DNA of 63,662 bases from Rhodospirillales bacterium. GTDB taxonomy: Bacteria; Pseudomonadota; Alphaproteobacteria; Dongiales; Dongiaceae. The notes under the pieces are model-generated. The model was not told the DNA's origin and searched no databases. It saw only the letters and a program-made list of their open reading frames with translations. Position numbers and translations under genes: made by a program. The stretch covers positions 1-63,662 of the forward strand of contig VFKA01000032.1 of NCBI GenBank assembly GCA_009885795.1. Direction: 5' to 3'. Shown here one piece after another: positions 52,154 through 61,386 of the stretch. Positions within the stretch are counted from its first letter, which is position 1. Every line of letters starts with the position of its first letter.

Positions 52154-52182
52154 GTTCTAGTTTGGTTCCCTGGCAAGGTCAA
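52154..52182 (-). promoter_or_regulatory. lexA promoter with embedded SOS box
   Basis: On the minus strand: -35 TTGACC, 17-base spacer, -10 TAGAAC, with the SOS box GAAC-N7-GAAC (GTTC-TAGTTTG-GTTC on plus, 52154-52168) overlapping the -10. This is the alphaproteobacterial LexA operator form. A second, imperfect box GAAC-N7-CAAC is at 52130-52144, just downstream of the first, possibly giving cooperative binding. Confidence 0.8.
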
Positions 52183-56504: not shown

Positions 56505-56598
56505 GGCAGCCTCTTTCGATCTTCCCCCACGCGCGCTCGTTCATCCTATAACAGATCGCCGGAGCCGGCGGAAGAAAGCGGCGGGCGCCCCGGAATAA

Positions 56599-56700
56599 CC
56601 TCATGGTGAGGAGCGCCCATAGGGCGCGTCTCGAACCATGAGCAGGAAAAGGGGTCGGGAGTCGTTCTTTGTCTGTCGCCCCGACGAAAGTCGGGCCCCA
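56599..56700. repeat. partial family D and B repeat units upstream of trpG
   Basis: CCTCATGGTGAGGAGC and GCGTCTCGAACCATG match the inner right arm and outer right arm of the element at 46244-46334. TGTCGCCCCGACG-aaag-TCGGGCCCCA (56674-56700) resembles the right half of family B in reverse orientation. They mark the left border of the accessory block. Confidence 0.55.
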
Positions 56701-56743
56701 TGTTAGAGTTAAAACTACCTGCTGAAGTCATTGCCTCAGGATT

Positions 56744-57112
56744 ATGAGACCCGCCATGGCAAATCGAAGCGCCGAGACGACGAAGGCAGCCGAGGACGCT
56801 ATCACGCGCGGCACGGGCAACGTGTTCGCGGACCTCGGCTATGCCGACGCCGACGAGCGGCAGACGAAGCTGCGCCTCGCCCATGCCATCAACGGCGTGA
56901 TCGCGCGCCGGCGCCTGGCCCAGGCCGCCGCGGCGGAGAAGCTCGGGGTCAACCAGCCGAAGATCTCGGCGCTGGCCAACTACAAGCTCGGCGGCTTCTC
57001 GGTCGAGCGCCTGATGACCTTCCTGACCGCGCTCGACCAGGACGTGGAGATCGTGGTCCGCGGGAAACCGCGGTCGCGAGCCGCGGCGCGCATTTCGGTC
57101 ATCGCGGCGTGA
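56744..57112 (+). CDS. XRE-family antitoxin-like protein (HTH_37 type), no toxin partner
   Basis: 122 residues (ATG 56744; an ATG at 56756 is equally possible). FADLGYADADERQTKLRLAHAINGVI leads into a helix-turn-helix, LAQAAAAEKLGVNQPKISALANYKLGGFSVERLMTFLTALDQDVEIVVR, the form seen in HigA-type antitoxins paired with RelE/Gp49-like toxins. No toxin gene lies on either side: upstream is repeat DNA and downstream a convergent gene. Either an orphan regulator or a remnant of a toxin-antitoxin pair. Confidence 0.85.
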   Translation: MRPAMANRSAETTKAAEDAITRGTGNVFADLGYADADERQTKLRLAHAINGVIARRRLAQAAAAEKLGVNQPKISALANYKLGGFSVERLMTFLTALDQDVEIVVRGKPRSRAAARISVIAA

Positions 57113-57155
57113 CGAACTGGGGACCGTCCTCCTCGCGCCGGGGAATCGCACTCGC

Positions 57156-57770
57156 CTACGGCGCGGGATCGTAATTGGGACAGACGCTGGAAACCTGAGC
57201 CCATATCCTGTCCAGTTCCGCCTTGGATCGCGTCGTCTCGATCTCACGGGCGGATGTGTTGTCGAGGACCAGAATCTCCCTGCGCATCACCGTGAAATCT
57301 CCACCCGACGGAGGTTGATACACAACGATGTAACCGCAGTTGCGATCCGCGTTTTCATACTTGCCGATGAGGTCGATCGCCACGTAAGGCCCCGGAAGCC
57401 GGGTACCGGTGGAACTCTTGGCCCAGGTGATTTTTGTGACTTTCCAGTGGCTCGAAGGACCCGATCTCTCGGTCGTCTTGGTTTGGATCTGGGTGAAAGT
57501 CTCCAAGGTCTGGCCGCGCTTGAAGTCCTCTTCAAGAAGCCCATGGGCCACATCGTAGCGGCCGCCGTCGATGGCGTTTAGAAACGCCTCGGTGATGGCG
57601 ATCGCCTGCCGCAGTTGATCCTCCGTTGGCAACCAACCTGGGGTCGAACCCGATACGATATTGATCTCATTCAAGACCGCCGAAGATACCTCAAGGGTAT
57701 CGGAGGCCGCGTGACGCGGCAACGCCCCAACCGCCAAAGCCAGGGCGCCGATGAAAAACACCGACCTCAT
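57156..57770 (-). CDS. exported DUF4019-like protein
   Basis: 204 residues from the ATG at 57770, which begins the signal peptide (MRSVFFIGALALAVGALPRHAAS); an in-frame ATG at 57827 would bury it. AIAITEAFLNAIDGGRYDVAHGLLEEDFKR, FTQIQTKTTERSGPSSHWKVTKI and the late YIVVYQP..FTVMRREILVL resemble DUF4019 domains as I remember them. Role unknown. Its start lies about 50 bases after the next minus-strand gene upstream, so the two may be co-transcribed. Confidence 0.75.
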   Translation of the reverse strand: MRSVFFIGALALAVGALPRHAASDTLEVSSAVLNEINIVSGSTPGWLPTEDQLRQAIAITEAFLNAIDGGRYDVAHGLLEEDFKRGQTLETFTQIQTKTTERSGPSSHWKVTKITWAKSSTGTRLPGPYVAIDLIGKYENADRNCGYIVVYQPPSGGDFTVMRREILVLDNTSAREIETTRSKAELDRIWAQVSSVCPNYDPAP

Positions 57771-57823
57771 CGCGGCTCCTGTTGCTGGCTGGAAAGGGAA
57801 CGGCGCCTTTTCCCGATAGCTTC

Positions 57824-59113
57824 TCATTGCTCCACCGGCTTGTAGTAGCCGCCCAGTTTCTCCGCCCAGGCAAGATTGCGCGCGATGGTCGCGGTCGCGA
57901 CCGCGCGTAGCCCGTCCTGCGGCATCTCGCGAACGGACGCAATCGCCTCGGCGAAATCGCGCGCTGCTGCCTGCGCCACCGCGACCTTGTATAGGGCTTC
58001 TTTACGTACCCAAGGAACATCGATCGTCGCGGCTATTTCATGCGCCTTGGCGGTGTCGCCACGGCTCGCCAAGGCGTCGACAATTCGCGCCAACACCCAG
58101 ACATGGGGCGGGTCATCGTCGGTAATCCCATCCACGTCGCCCTCGTACATGAATCCCTCTTCCAATGGGAGTGTCGGGTGGCTATAGAGCAATGTGCCTT
58201 TGATCATCGACGCGGTGGCCAGGGCACCTGCTGTGTCGCCGCCTAGCGCCTGTCCCGTGGCCATTACGAGAAGGACCGCGTCCCGAACGTACGAGTCATC
58301 GATCGTCGCGACCTTCTCGATCAGTCTTGGATCGACACCACCCTCCGAAACCTGCGCTGCCACGAAGTCCCTGAACTCCGGCAGGTCGTAATTTCCGCGC
58401 TCCAGTGCCGTTTTGAAGTCGAACGTCTCGACTTGATCGAACGCGTTTTCATCAATCGATTCTTGCGGCTCGACGGGCGCAAAGTACGTCTCGATGAATG
58501 AGCAGCGAGACATGTTTTCCAGGAAAGCGAACCCCGCCTGCTGCACCGTTCTGGATGCCGAAGCCTCATCCCCTTTCCTGCACTGCTCCCACGCGATTCG
58601 CCTGAGGGCGCGAATACGGGCCTTCTGGTTCGTCATTGTTGCCACGATTCCCAGGGCACGATCGAAGTCACCTTGGTTTGCAAGGGCCTTTGCCGTGTCT
58701 TCGAGCGCATAATCAGGATCCGTGGTCGGCGGTCTTTCCATCATCTCGATGGTCTCCATGGCGTCCTCGACGAATCCGGCCTTGGTTTGGAGGCCCGCGA
58801 TGGTAGACAATCCAGCTTGCCAATTCTCGTCGCCCGCGCTTGCTTGGCTTGCCGACTGGCGCAGGATGATCCGGGCCGTGTCCCGTTCGCCGGCGTCCGC
58901 CAGCATTGCGCCAATATGAGCCGCCGCTGCTGGACCCAAATTGCTGGACGCGAGCGCATCCGCGAACAGGCATCTCGAAGTCGGCGCCTTGAAGCATTCC
59001 TCGGTGGCCGGCGCCGGGGCGATGATCGGCGTGTCCCTTGATACAGGCGCGTCCTCCGCCGCGGCCGAGGATGCCAGGCAGGCCAGCAGTAGGAATGGAG
59101 ACAGACGGCGCAT
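57824..59113 (-). CDS. exported alpha-helical repeat protein, 429 aa, unknown function
   Basis: The ATG at 59113 begins a signal peptide (MRRLSPFLLLACLASSAAA-ED). The mature protein consists of repeated helical hairpins of about 30-35 residues with the pattern 'A..G....A..I...I': AGERDTARIILRQSA, AGFVEDAMETIEMME, QGDFDRALGIVATM, RGDTAKAHEIAATI, ARDFAEAIASVREM. This looks like a TPR/SEL-like solenoid for protein binding in the periplasm. No enzyme motif. The acidic middle (EPQESIDENAFDQVETFDF) is less repetitive. Family not recognised. Confidence 0.75.
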   Translation of the reverse strand: MRRLSPFLLLACLASSAAAEDAPVSRDTPIIAPAPATEECFKAPTSRCLFADALASSNLGPAAAAHIGAMLADAGERDTARIILRQSASQASAGDENWQAGLSTIAGLQTKAGFVEDAMETIEMMERPPTTDPDYALEDTAKALANQGDFDRALGIVATMTNQKARIRALRRIAWEQCRKGDEASASRTVQQAGFAFLENMSRCSFIETYFAPVEPQESIDENAFDQVETFDFKTALERGNYDLPEFRDFVAAQVSEGGVDPRLIEKVATIDDSYVRDAVLLVMATGQALGGDTAGALATASMIKGTLLYSHPTLPLEEGFMYEGDVDGITDDDPPHVWVLARIVDALASRGDTAKAHEIAATIDVPWVRKEALYKVAVAQAAARDFAEAIASVREMPQDGLRAVATATIARNLAWAEKLGGYYKPVEQ

Positions 59114-59175
59114 GAGACAATATTCCGCGACAGTACATAGCTTTTCGAACACCTCGCCTCGATCGCCCGCCGCCG

Positions 59176-59496
59176 TCAAACAATCGCCTGCAATCCCTTG
59201 CGGCTGACGATGGACAGCAACCGCAGCGCCGGTCCGCCGGGGCGCTTGGCACCGCGTTCCCAATCGGAGACAAGGTTCCTGGACACGTTGAGATAGCGCG
59301 CGAACACCGGTTGCGAGACTCGCTCGTTTTCACGGATCGCCTTGATATCCTCGGGCTTGAGGACAGGGGCCGGCGTCAAGCAGCCTTCATCGAGTTCGCG
59401 CATGGTCCGCTTGTCGATGGCACCGGCTTCATGGAGGCCCTCCACCATCTCATGGACTGCCGCCATGGCGCCGCTCTTATAGGTTTTTGCTCCCAC
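59176..59496 (-). CDS. HigA-like XRE antitoxin, no visible toxin
   Basis: A GTG start at 59496 with a GGAGG six bases upstream gives 106 residues, VGAKTYKSGAMAAVHEMVEGLHEAGAIDKRTMREL at the N terminus, then a helix-turn-helix KAIRENERVSQPVFARYLNVSRNLVSDWERGAKRPGGPALRLL. This is the HigA2/NadS-like layout that normally follows a RelE-family toxin gene. The 200 bases upstream contain no toxin ORF that I can recognise, so it is an orphan or the toxin has been lost. Confidence 0.85.
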   Translation of the reverse strand: MGAKTYKSGAMAAVHEMVEGLHEAGAIDKRTMRELDEGCLTPAPVLKPEDIKAIRENERVSQPVFARYLNVSRNLVSDWERGAKRPGGPALRLLSIVSRKGLQAIV

Positions 59497-59569
59497 GGTT
59501 CGCCTCCATGATCCTTCCGGCGTCGACCTCGACATCGATCCTAGCTTGCGAAATGGACGCAAAAAAGTA

Positions 59570-59602
59570 TTGACTTCGAGCGAGCGTGTTCCTATTGTGT
59601 TC
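59570..59602 (+). promoter_or_regulatory. LexA-type promoter: SOS box inside a sigma-70 promoter
   Basis: Plus strand: -35 TTGACT (59570-59575), 17-base spacer, -10 TATTGT (59593-59598), with SOS box GTTC-CTATTGT-GTTC (59588-59602) covering the -10. Architecture matches the lexA promoter in this window. No recognisable gene lies downstream before the trpE 3' end at 59869. On the minus strand the box is 92 bases upstream of the HigA-like gene. Confidence 0.65.
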
Positions 59603-59868
59603 CTTGCTCCCGTCTCGGCGGGACAGACGTAGTTCTTGGACATCGTGAATACGGCCTCTGGGAAACGGCGCCCTCGCGGACGAGTGGCCGCCGAACCGGC
59701 CCAACAGGCTTATAAGTTGCTGTTTTCTTGGCGGTTTCCGGGGAAAAAAGTCTTCATGGGGTTGTTCCTCCGGAAATTAGAATCGCGCGCGGGCGGTGTA
59801 GGCCATAAATCCCATGTCGGACAACGGCTTAGCTCGAAATTGCCACCGCAATGCCTTAATTCAACAGG
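59603..59868. other. region without a recognised gene downstream of the SOS promoter
   Basis: About 266 bases. A plus-strand frame from GTG 59645 (VNTASGKRRPRGRVAAEP...) is open but runs about 210 bases into the opposite-strand trpE gene and has no family resemblance I can see. The stretch may encode a small peptide, a short RNA or the remains of a lost SOS gene. A T/A-rich patch (GGGGAAAAAAGTCTTC) lies near 59740-59755. Confidence 0.4.
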
Positions 59869-61386
59869 CTACCCCTCCCGCCCGCCCCCGGCGGCGAAGG
59901 CGAGGGCCTCCTGCGCGGCGCGGATGAGCGCGCGCGCCTTGTTGCGGCTCTCCTGGTACTCTGCCTCCGGGTCGCTGTCGGCGACGATGCCGGCGCCGGC
60001 CTGCACGTACATCGTGCCGTCCTTCACCAGCGCGGTCCGGAGCGCGATGCAGGTATCCATCGTCCCGTTGGCGGCGAAATAGCCGACCGACCCGGCATAG
60101 AGGTTGCGGTGCGTCGGCTCCAACTCGTCGATGATCTCCATCGCCCGCACCTTGGGCGCGCCCGAGACCGTGCCGGCGGGGAACCCGGCGATGAGCGCGT
60201 CGAGCGCGTCATGCTCCGGCAGAATCGCGCCCTCGACGTTGGAGACGATGTGCATGACGTGCGAGTAGTACTCGATCCGCATCAGGTCGCTGACCTTCAC
60301 CGTGCCGATGCGGGCGACCCGGCCCACGTCGTTGCGCCCGAGGTCGAGCAGCATCAGATGCTCGGCCCGTTCCTTCGGGTCGGCCAGCAGCTCGGCGGCG
60401 AGCGCCCGGTCTTGCGCCGGCGTCGCCCCTCTCGGCCGCGTGCCGGCGAGCGGGCGGATGGTGACGATGCCGTCGCGCAAACGCACCAGGATCTCCGGGC
60501 TCGAGCCCACCACGGCATACGCGCCGAAATCGAAGAAAAACAGGAACGGCGACGGGTTCAACCGCCGGAGCGACCGATAGAGCGCGAAGGGCGGCAGCGG
60601 GAACGGGAGCGCGAAGCGTTGGGCGAGGACCACCTGGAAGATGTCGCCGGCCAGAATGTATTCCTTGGCCTTGCGGACCATGGCGTGGAAGTCCTCTCGG
60701 CTCATATTGGCCGCGGGCTCGGGCAGCGTCAGGCGCTCGTCCACCGCCTGCCGGCTCACCGCCAGGGGCTTGTTGAAATCGGCGACGGTTTCGGCCAAGC
60801 GCGCCCGCGCCGCCGCGAAAGCCTGCTCGGCCGTGACACCCTTCGCGGGCCTCACCGGCGTCACGATCGTCAACCGGTCCTGTACGTTGTCGAAGATGGC
60901 GCCCACCGTCGGGCGCAGCAGCACGCCGTCGGGAACGCCCAGCGTATTCTCCTTCGCCCCCGGCAGGCGCTCCATCAGGCGCACGGTCTCATAACCGAGA
61001 TAGCCGAAGAGCCCGGCCGCCATCGGCGGCAGTTCGACAGGCGTATCGATGCGCGACTCCGCGATGAGGTCGCGCAGCGATTGGAGCGCCGAGCCCGCGC
61101 AAGGCCCGAACCGGTGCCGGTCCGCCAACGCCTGGCGGTTCACCTCGGCCTTGTCGCCGAAGCAGCGCCAGATGAGATCCGGCTTCAGGCCGATGAAGGA
61201 ATAGCGTCCTCGCGTGGCGCCGCCCTCGACGGATTCGAGCAGCAGGCTGTCCGGCCGCCCGCCGGCGAGCTTCAGCATCGCCGACACCGGGGTATCGAGA
61301 TCGGCGGCGAGCGCCGTCCACACCACGGACGCCCGCCCGGCCTCATAGGCTTGCCGGAAGAGAGCGAAGTCCGGCTCGGTCTTCAC
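59869..61386 (-). CDS. trpE: anthranilate synthase component I
   Basis: Converts chorismate to anthranilate with ammonia from TrpG. 505 residues; GTG start overlapping the ppiD stop (GTGA). Feedback-binding LLLES at 48-52 (DSLLLESVEGG), chorismate-binding core with ILAGDIFQVVLAQRF, IRPLAGTRPRG, LLDLGRNDVGRVA, FPAGTVSGAPKVRAMEII and GAGIVADSDPEAEY. Cut off from trpG by the block 56505-59868, so stoichiometric co-expression with trpG cannot come from direct coupling. Confidence 0.97.
   Translation of the reverse strand: MKTEPDFALFRQAYEAGRASVVWTALAADLDTPVSAMLKLAGGRPDSLLLESVEGGATRGRYSFIGLKPDLIWRCFGDKAEVNRQALADRHRFGPCAGSALQSLRDLIAESRIDTPVELPPMAAGLFGYLGYETVRLMERLPGAKENTLGVPDGVLLRPTVGAIFDNVQDRLTIVTPVRPAKGVTAEQAFAAARARLAETVADFNKPLAVSRQAVDERLTLPEPAANMSREDFHAMVRKAKEYILAGDIFQVVLAQRFALPFPLPPFALYRSLRRLNPSPFLFFFDFGAYAVVGSSPEILVRLRDGIVTIRPLAGTRPRGATPAQDRALAAELLADPKERAEHLMLLDLGRNDVGRVARIGTVKVSDLMRIEYYSHVMHIVSNVEGAILPEHDALDALIAGFPAGTVSGAPKVRAMEIIDELEPTHRNLYAGSVGYFAANGTMDTCIALRTALVKDGTMYVQAGAGIVADSDPEAEYQESRNKARALIRAAQEALAFAAGGGREG

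Follow-up and report, generated by a model that had tools for sequence, protein, structure and literature searches.

The operator GTTC-N7-GTTC lies over promoters of the Caulobacter SOS regulon, that of higBA included. In the passages of PMC13384398 that treat this operon, a perfect LexA site is placed upstream of higB, the operon is repressed by both LexA and HigA, and Caulobacter LexA binds (T/A)TGTTC(N6)TGTTC; a passage of PMC12700426 gives the motif for the same protein as GTTCN7GTTC, with the box GTTCttgttatGTTC. In enterobacteria, the tisB/istR and symE/symR systems make short transcripts that LexA controls and that do not belong to the classical repair genes. In boxA-led rRNA operons and CRISPR arrays, a promoter is followed by boxA and then by an untranslated RNA. 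Finally, pneumococcal BOX and the Sinorhizobium repeats are intergenic, present in many copies and confined to few genomes. Some small interspersed repeats are transcribed, according to sections of PMC3049150 and PMC2873474, and for Sinorhizobium the latter cites "Rhizobium-specific intergenic mosaic elements."

The locus examined here shares the operator with the Caulobacter promoters, but unlike that of higBA its promoter drives no recognised gene and points away from a HigA-like gene, and unlike Caulobacter SOS promoters it is one of about twenty like promoters in a repeat family. Its predicted order of promoter, boxA and untranslated RNA is that of rRNA operons and CRISPR arrays, whereas the product is not rRNA, three copies contain no repeat-spacer array, and there are more than 30 dispersed short copies. 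In contrast to BOX and the Sinorhizobium repeats, it combines a conserved sigma70 promoter with an rRNA-type boxA and, in most copies, with an operator of the LexA type; we found this combination in no single repeat in the literature searched. The likeness to tisB/istR and symE/symR lies in the putative LexA-controlled short transcript, and no toxin peptide or antisense partner was found here.

We consider it fairly probable (roughly 60%) that the site is the 5′ end of a copy (∼59570-59863) of a multi-copy, genome-specific intergenic element that makes a LexA-repressible, boxA-antiterminated untranslated RNA. LexA control, transcription and antitermination are what we infer from the sequence. 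LexA on the GTTC-N7-GTTC over the −10 would block the promoter; DNA damage would remove LexA from the box, and RNA polymerase would then make an untranslated RNA starting near 59605. The boxA would recruit NusB-S10 antitermination factors, so that Rho would not stop the untranslated transcript. In the window (the whole stretch of DNA that was analysed, 63,662 nucleotides), this RNA would head toward, and possibly into, the 3′ end of trpE. The features are collected in Table 1.

Table 1. Features of the element and its surroundings, in window positions
Feature	Position	Strand	Basis
sigma70-type promoter TTGACT-N17-TATTGT	59570..59598	+	consensus scan and recurrence in copies
GTTC-N7-GTTC, LexA-type operator across the −10	59588..59602	+	pattern match; half-sites perfect in 20/32 copies
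5′ hairpin of predicted transcript, stem 59608-59613 with 59618-59623	59608..59623	+	covariation, 22 copies
boxA-type antitermination motif GTTCTTGGACATCGTGAA	59632..59649	+	1 mismatch to family form GTTCTTTGACATCGTGAA
core motif C, CTTCATGGGGTTGTTCCTC	59752..59770	+	16 exact and 2 one-mismatch sites in genome
3′ part of type-A element, tail common to nine aligned copies	59771..59863	+	homology to other copies up to ∼59860
HigA-like HTH antitoxin gene, 5′ neighbour of element	59176..59496	-	Pfam HTH_3
trpE, convergent core-gene 3′ neighbour	59869..61386	-	Pfam Chorismate_bind and Anth_synt_I_N
accessory stretch between trpG and trpE: HTH_37 gene, DUF4019-like, TPR-like, HigA-like, element	56505..59868		Pfam

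In a consensus scan of both strands of 59100-60000, the −35 TTGACT (59570-59575) and the −10 TATTGT (59593-59598), separated by a spacer of 17, formed the sole sigma70-like site (shuffles, mean of 0.1). The box across the −10 (59588-59602) reads GTTCCTATTGTGTTC and also matches the Caulobacter consensus in the cited passage of PMC13384398 at its core, TGTTC(N6)TGTTC. The sequence-only reading of this DNA had proposed exactly this promoter with a perfect GTTC-N7-GTTC over its −10, and we confirmed it at 59570-59602. Its claim that no recognised gene lies downstream was likewise borne out by the ORFs tested: none of four around or downstream of the promoter had a Pfam match at E ≤ 0.1, the fifth ORF in that test being the HigA-like frame itself. 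The same reading saw here the design of the lexA promoter, which is correct in part. The lexA box (52154-52168; GTTCTAGTTTGGTTC, identical in the window's genome and in a genome of a second genus, G014) has half-sites and spacing equal to those of the element's box and, by eye, overlaps the apparent lexA −10, but its spacer letters differ and along transcription it reads GAAC-N7-GAAC, the opposite orientation.

Too much significance had been given to the box. Perfect GTTC-N7-GTTC sites number 4 in the window against 1.63 expected (at least 4 in 9 of 100 shuffles), and one of the four (40714) is inside what reads by eye as a cdsA-like coding gene. The genome from which the window comes (G000; 103 contigs with a total of 3.46 Mb, no 16S found in the assembly) has 98, against 122 for the reversed pattern, and thus no excess. 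Taken alone, GTTC-N7-GTTC is at chance level; what exceeds chance is its register with the promoter, which recurs in 20 of 32 homologous copies. Since there is no genome-wide excess of boxes, the argument for LexA function rests on the retention of the box among related copies. A chance promoter or box was ruled out by this recurrence, though the box alone is at chance level.

What the sequence-only reading had missed, while describing the promoter and box correctly, is that the site belongs to a dispersed repeat family. When positions 59570-59880 were compared with G000, 38 places matched at E ≤ 1; many of these matches begin at the box, and several stop near 59860. The boxA motif GTTCTTTGACATCGTGAA was found at 36 sites with at most two mismatches (control, 0), and the 32 of these with at most one mismatch are the "32 copies" of this report; within the window the boxA-type motif is unique. 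The core motif CTTCATGGGGTTGTTCCTC is near-invariant and present in about half of the copies (18 sites), and a third module, CATGGGGTNNATCG, has 24 sites, 20 of them within 400 bases downstream of a boxA site on the same strand. The copies are modular, with promoter, hairpin and boxA followed by varying combinations of 3′ modules. Two boxA copies on one contig (L154; C101, ∼48035 and ∼49325) are 1.3 kb apart and have similar flanks, which suggests a local duplication.

With many intergenic copies, exchangeable modules and a presence in few genomes, the family has the makeup of an intergenic modular repeat of the BOX kind. Three copies were examined for other signatures. They have no shared terminal inverted repeat of the kind found in MITEs, and they have no regular direct repeats of 20 to 40 nt with spacers, so that a CRISPR-like array was ruled out; one of them (L053) holds a single pair of 23-nt repeats with 74% identity. 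Plasmids and viral contigs gave no match to the element, and a genome-contig collection gave 5 exact core matches in unrelated taxa, by estimate about the number expected by chance.

A sigma70 promoter precedes boxA in 29 of the 32 copies by a lenient −35/−10 test (including two, L051 and L057, that are doubtful by eye) and in 26 by a strict one. The lenient and strict tests passed 3.3% and 0.4% of shuffled sequences, and 3/91 and 0/91 real upstream stretches, respectively. By such sequence standards the window promoter is real. Both GTTC half-sites are perfect in 20 copies, and 12 are without a perfect box. The half-sites are linked: of 22 copies with the first, 20 also have the second, against 0 of 10 without the first (Fisher P = 1e-6, in a sample of related and so not independent copies). 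In the ten spacer columns between −35 and box, the commonest base is kept at 0.56 on average (29 copies). Had the boxes drifted as this spacer has, 0.28 perfect ones would be expected among the lenient-pass copies (29 of 32; L047, L048 and L067 fail the lenient test and were dropped), and 19 were observed.

The promoter might instead be real but constitutive, with GTTC-N7-GTTC as mere −10 surroundings or as an operator to which a regulator different from LexA binds, which we hold to be possible but on the unlikely side. This would fit the lack of a genome-wide box excess, and it would fit the copies without a GTTC box, all the more as these retain the promoter and the box is therefore not needed for promoter form. 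It would also fit the family of G014, where 4 of 14 promoters have GATC-N7-GATC at the same spacing. Against it, the half-sites are linked while the spacer between them varies, and their geometry exactly matches the lexA box of the same genome. As in LexA-regulated promoters of the Alphaproteobacteria, GTTC-N7-GTTC stands in register with the promoter, and the same operator is at this genome's lexA. Probably, the window promoter is LexA repressible and starts an untranslated, boxA-led RNA that belongs to a repeat family specific to this genome.

Between promoter and boxA, a hairpin has changes on both sides in 6 of 7 pairs, with 82.5% of cells paired, in the 22 of 32 copies where promoter and boxA are 43 to 44 apart (the other 10 have shorter or different spacing). 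Its covariation score was 0.384, compared with 0.284 for shuffled alignments (0/500 as high) and at most 0.202 for slid ones. The identification of boxA is based on two alphaproteobacterial genomes, in which TTTGACATTGTGAA lies ∼177 nt (G026) and ∼104 nt (G153) before 16S; five stretches were checked, and the other three had no rRNA match. The motif is thus like the boxA before 16S in this class, and the window copy has one mismatch.

Other RNA features were not found. The predicted RNA was not more stable overall than its shuffles (z, +0.59), and a global fold was rejected as a feature; a hairpin in the core motif had no covariation. The long-range pairing of boxA with core C proposed by RNAalifold was rejected because it involves nearly invariant columns and differs in a second alignment. 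Rfam gave no match over the gathering cutoff in 20 copies, none at E ≤ 5 in 59100-60000 and none at E ≤ 0.5 in nine loci of G014, and a known RNA family was ruled out on these grounds. An anti-Shine-Dalgarno role for CCTC/CCTCC in the modules was supported by nothing past the letters.

The copies differ widely outside their motifs. Among 15 aligned copies, the mean pairwise identity outside the motifs is 0.625 (0.65 to 0.88 to the nearest copy), compared with 0.964 in boxA and 0.988 in a 23-nt stretch made up of core C and 4 bases 5′ of it. Relative to its nearest copy, each has 26 to 74 differences in ∼200 columns outside the motifs (12 to 35%) and 0 to 3 in the 41 columns of boxA and core. 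This looks like selection at the level of the single copy. Because there are no young pairs, constraint on individual copies is favoured over recent spread from one master, although this is not proof.

This bears on whether the element is a small interspersed repeat that lives as a parasite in the manner of BOX, its promoter incidental, its motifs serving its own spread and no role left for the host, a reading that we find rather doubtful. The family is modular and intergenic, and of 16 other genomes of the order 15 lack its boxA string (at most one mismatch); similar families carry different 3′ repeats. A portion of PMC3049150 describes pneumococcal BOX as forming ORFs or RNA structures, with several copies expressed, and judges it likely parasitic. 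In a parasite, however, decay should be even, whereas the 15 aligned copies include no young pairs and keep boxA and core nearly unchanged; the missing terminal inverted repeat in three copies also counts against it.

The product is most likely an RNA rather than a peptide, judging from the reading frames. Frames from the ATG in the core run from 26 to more than 50 codons in 19 copies, and frames from a GTG inside boxA run from 16 to 135 codons in 26 copies, with no conserved length. A small peptide is therefore very improbable, whether begun at the plus-strand core ATG (MGLFL...) or encoded on the minus strand (GGAGG, then ATGAAGAC). The ATG is indeed in the core of 19/19 core copies examined, and four of the frames end after 27 codons, but the remaining plus-strand frames vary over the range given, those of the minus strand have 6 to 63 codons, three of them staying open past the stretch, and the first core codons are almost without synonymous change in the 15 aligned copies, which indicates constraint on nucleotides. 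A lost or hidden protein gene was rejected as well, there being no Pfam match and no frame of conserved length among the subset of frames tested. Of the products proposed by the sequence-only reading, the small SOS RNA gains support from the recurring promoter, hairpin and boxA, and the small peptide loses it for want of a conserved-length frame. The suggestion that the promoter was left from a lost damage-inducible gene was not supported, as other copies share the layout and the frames tested are of no constant length.

We surveyed the neighbours of 35 of the 36 boxA sites (C29 was left out), calling genes with a simple and crude codon model and scanning the nearest ones against Pfam. On the 5′ side, one site (L134) had no called gene and 30 of 34 genes were scanned, those left out being L148 and L152, which resemble the HlyC genes by DNA, and the ORFs of less than 65 amino acids at L162 and L164. 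On the 3′ side, 30 of 35 were scanned, without L136, L144, L145, L159 and one of the two in L154; the calls at L136, L144 and L145 look like antisense calls. The nearest called 5′ gene belonged to a toxin-antitoxin system in 9 cases and to another defence or mobile class in 5 (14/30 scanned), compared with 0/30 for the nearest called 3′ gene (Fisher P = 1.7e-5, with classes set after the matches had been viewed). The toxin-antitoxin genes were the HigA-like gene of the window, a HigA with a HigB-like ORF, DarG, PemK, an HI0074-type gene, a CopG antitoxin, a HicB-like gene, Phd and a PIN gene. The others were a Y1 transposase, a DNA methylase, an nSTAND gene, an HTH/HipB-like gene and an Mrr-like gene. 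The HicB-like and Mrr-like calls (L156, L157) are below the Pfam curated cutoff, the HipB-like label (L153) comes from an HTH match and an NCBIfam label below cutoff, and some nearest called genes are 1.1 to 1.7 kb from the copy.

The elements could be the end or landing site of mobile toxin-antitoxin or defence cassettes, with the RNA acting in the insertion or upkeep of the cargo, and the one-sided distribution of these classes in G000 speaks for this, as does the position of the window element at the expected place of an antitoxin's toxin partner. We nevertheless regard it as improbable: the classes were set after viewing, three of them (L156, L157 and L153) depend on sub-cutoff scores or labels, several nearest genes are more than 1 kb away, neither a second conserved end nor, in an unsystematic look, a duplicated target site turned up, and no cargo bias was visible by eye in 17 stretches of G014.

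Of the 35 nearest called 3′ genes, 24 face the element and 11 run in the same direction, three of these calls looking like antisense errors. Antisense transcription across the trpE 3′ end, which the sequence-only reading had raised, may occur in the window, where no terminator was found 3′ of the promoter, but it is incidental to this copy.

Among the other 5′ neighbours were HlyC-like acyltransferase genes, two of them scanned and three more recognised by DNA similarity. The upstream HlyC-like genes or remnants of L049, L050, L053, L061 and L065 share stretches of 142 to 221 bp that are 88 to 91% identical and are less similar in the other stretches that match, a pattern as after gene conversion. 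In L138 (C25 of G000), a DarG antitoxin (NCBIfam NF048014, E = 5.5e-131) neighbours a boxA copy whose promoter is degenerate, and the ORF adjoining DarG reads by eye like DarT.

In the window, the gene order by Pfam is ppiD-like, trpE, element, HigA-like, TPR-like, DUF4019-like, HTH_37, trpG, trpD, trpC, moaC and moeA, followed by lexA (named by sequence); the TPR-like and DUF4019-like matches are below the Pfam cutoff. No toxin partner was recognised upstream of the HigA-like gene. Its homologues in G026, G005 and G027 are directly preceded by an ORF that looks HigB/RelE-like by eye, so that the element holds the place where the toxin partner would sit. A HigA autoregulatory operator as the general reason for the box was ruled out, the same box being found beside quite different genes. 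The box is thus not specific to HigA, though LexA may also influence the HigA-like gene, as the sequence-only reading had supposed. Seven of 10 relatives had trpG in the fetched stretch; their trpE-trpG gap measures 1.4 to 8.4 kb, holds other genes and has no boxA-like motif. Because this gap varies among relatives, trpE-trpG is a variable place and not a clean empty site, and a clean insertion is not supported by the empty-site test.

Of the 16 other genomes of the order, the 15 without the boxA 18-mer leave G014, with 2 sites at that threshold. This genome has a repeat of its own, GTTTACAGAACGNAGAATCG, at 21 sites, absent from G000 and from the other 15; a boxA variant lies upstream of it in 14 of 17 loci read, with a promoter-like −10 by eye. 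In 385 alphaproteobacterial genomes (a sample that did not include G014), the 14-mer TTTGACATCGTGAA with at most one mismatch was most frequent in G000 (33 occurrences) and next in G143 (9), no other genome having more than 6. Of the nine G143 sites, eight resemble one another by eye, with boxA followed by iterated repeats or hairpins, and the ninth (L283) looks coding. GTTC-N7-GTTC was found before boxA in 0 of 14 G014 loci and 0 of 9 G143 sites. The design is thus seen to recur in G014 and G143, and since their boxA families are without the GTTC box, LexA-type control is seen only in the G000 family. The neighbours in both genomes were judged by eye only, as the gene caller gave many antisense calls there.

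Tentatively, and as a reading that we would call unlikely rather than likely at this point, these families may form a class of alphaproteobacterial RNAs not described before, multi-copy, untranslated and boxA-antiterminated, with dialects of their own in at least three lineages (G000, G014 and G143). Those of G000 would mostly be placed under LexA, many at borders between toxin-antitoxin or defence genes and core genes, and damage would fire about twenty at once. If LexA does control the family, a single damage signal would fire about twenty untranslated RNAs across a chromosome, many of them next to genes for toxin-antitoxin systems or defence. Such an SOS output is absent from the literature searched, and short dispersed RNAs would join the known users of rRNA-type boxA antitermination. 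Were the elements parasitic, they would still be an example of a repeat equipped with an SOS-type promoter and an antitermination signal of its own. Promoter, boxA and core motif together provide a handle for finding such families in other genomes.

The 3′ repeats of the related families show some regularities by eye. In G143 (L279-L287), boxA is followed either by ATGTCGCG, iterated at intervals of ∼12 nt, or by hairpins of AATAGGTTACC/GGTAACCTATT. In G014 (L198-L214; for example, L202:4593-5100), the modules read CAA-X-ACCC-NN-X-ACAGAA with a directly repeated 5-nt X, which seems to change in step (GGTTT, CTTTT, CGCAG, CCCAG, CCCGG, CGTTG), and in some copies the complement of X lies ∼100 nt downstream. 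Four of the G014 loci (L198, L199, L204 and L208) are near contig ends, with boxA at base 206 in three, and have a common upstream sequence that is apparently the start of a divergent repeated gene.
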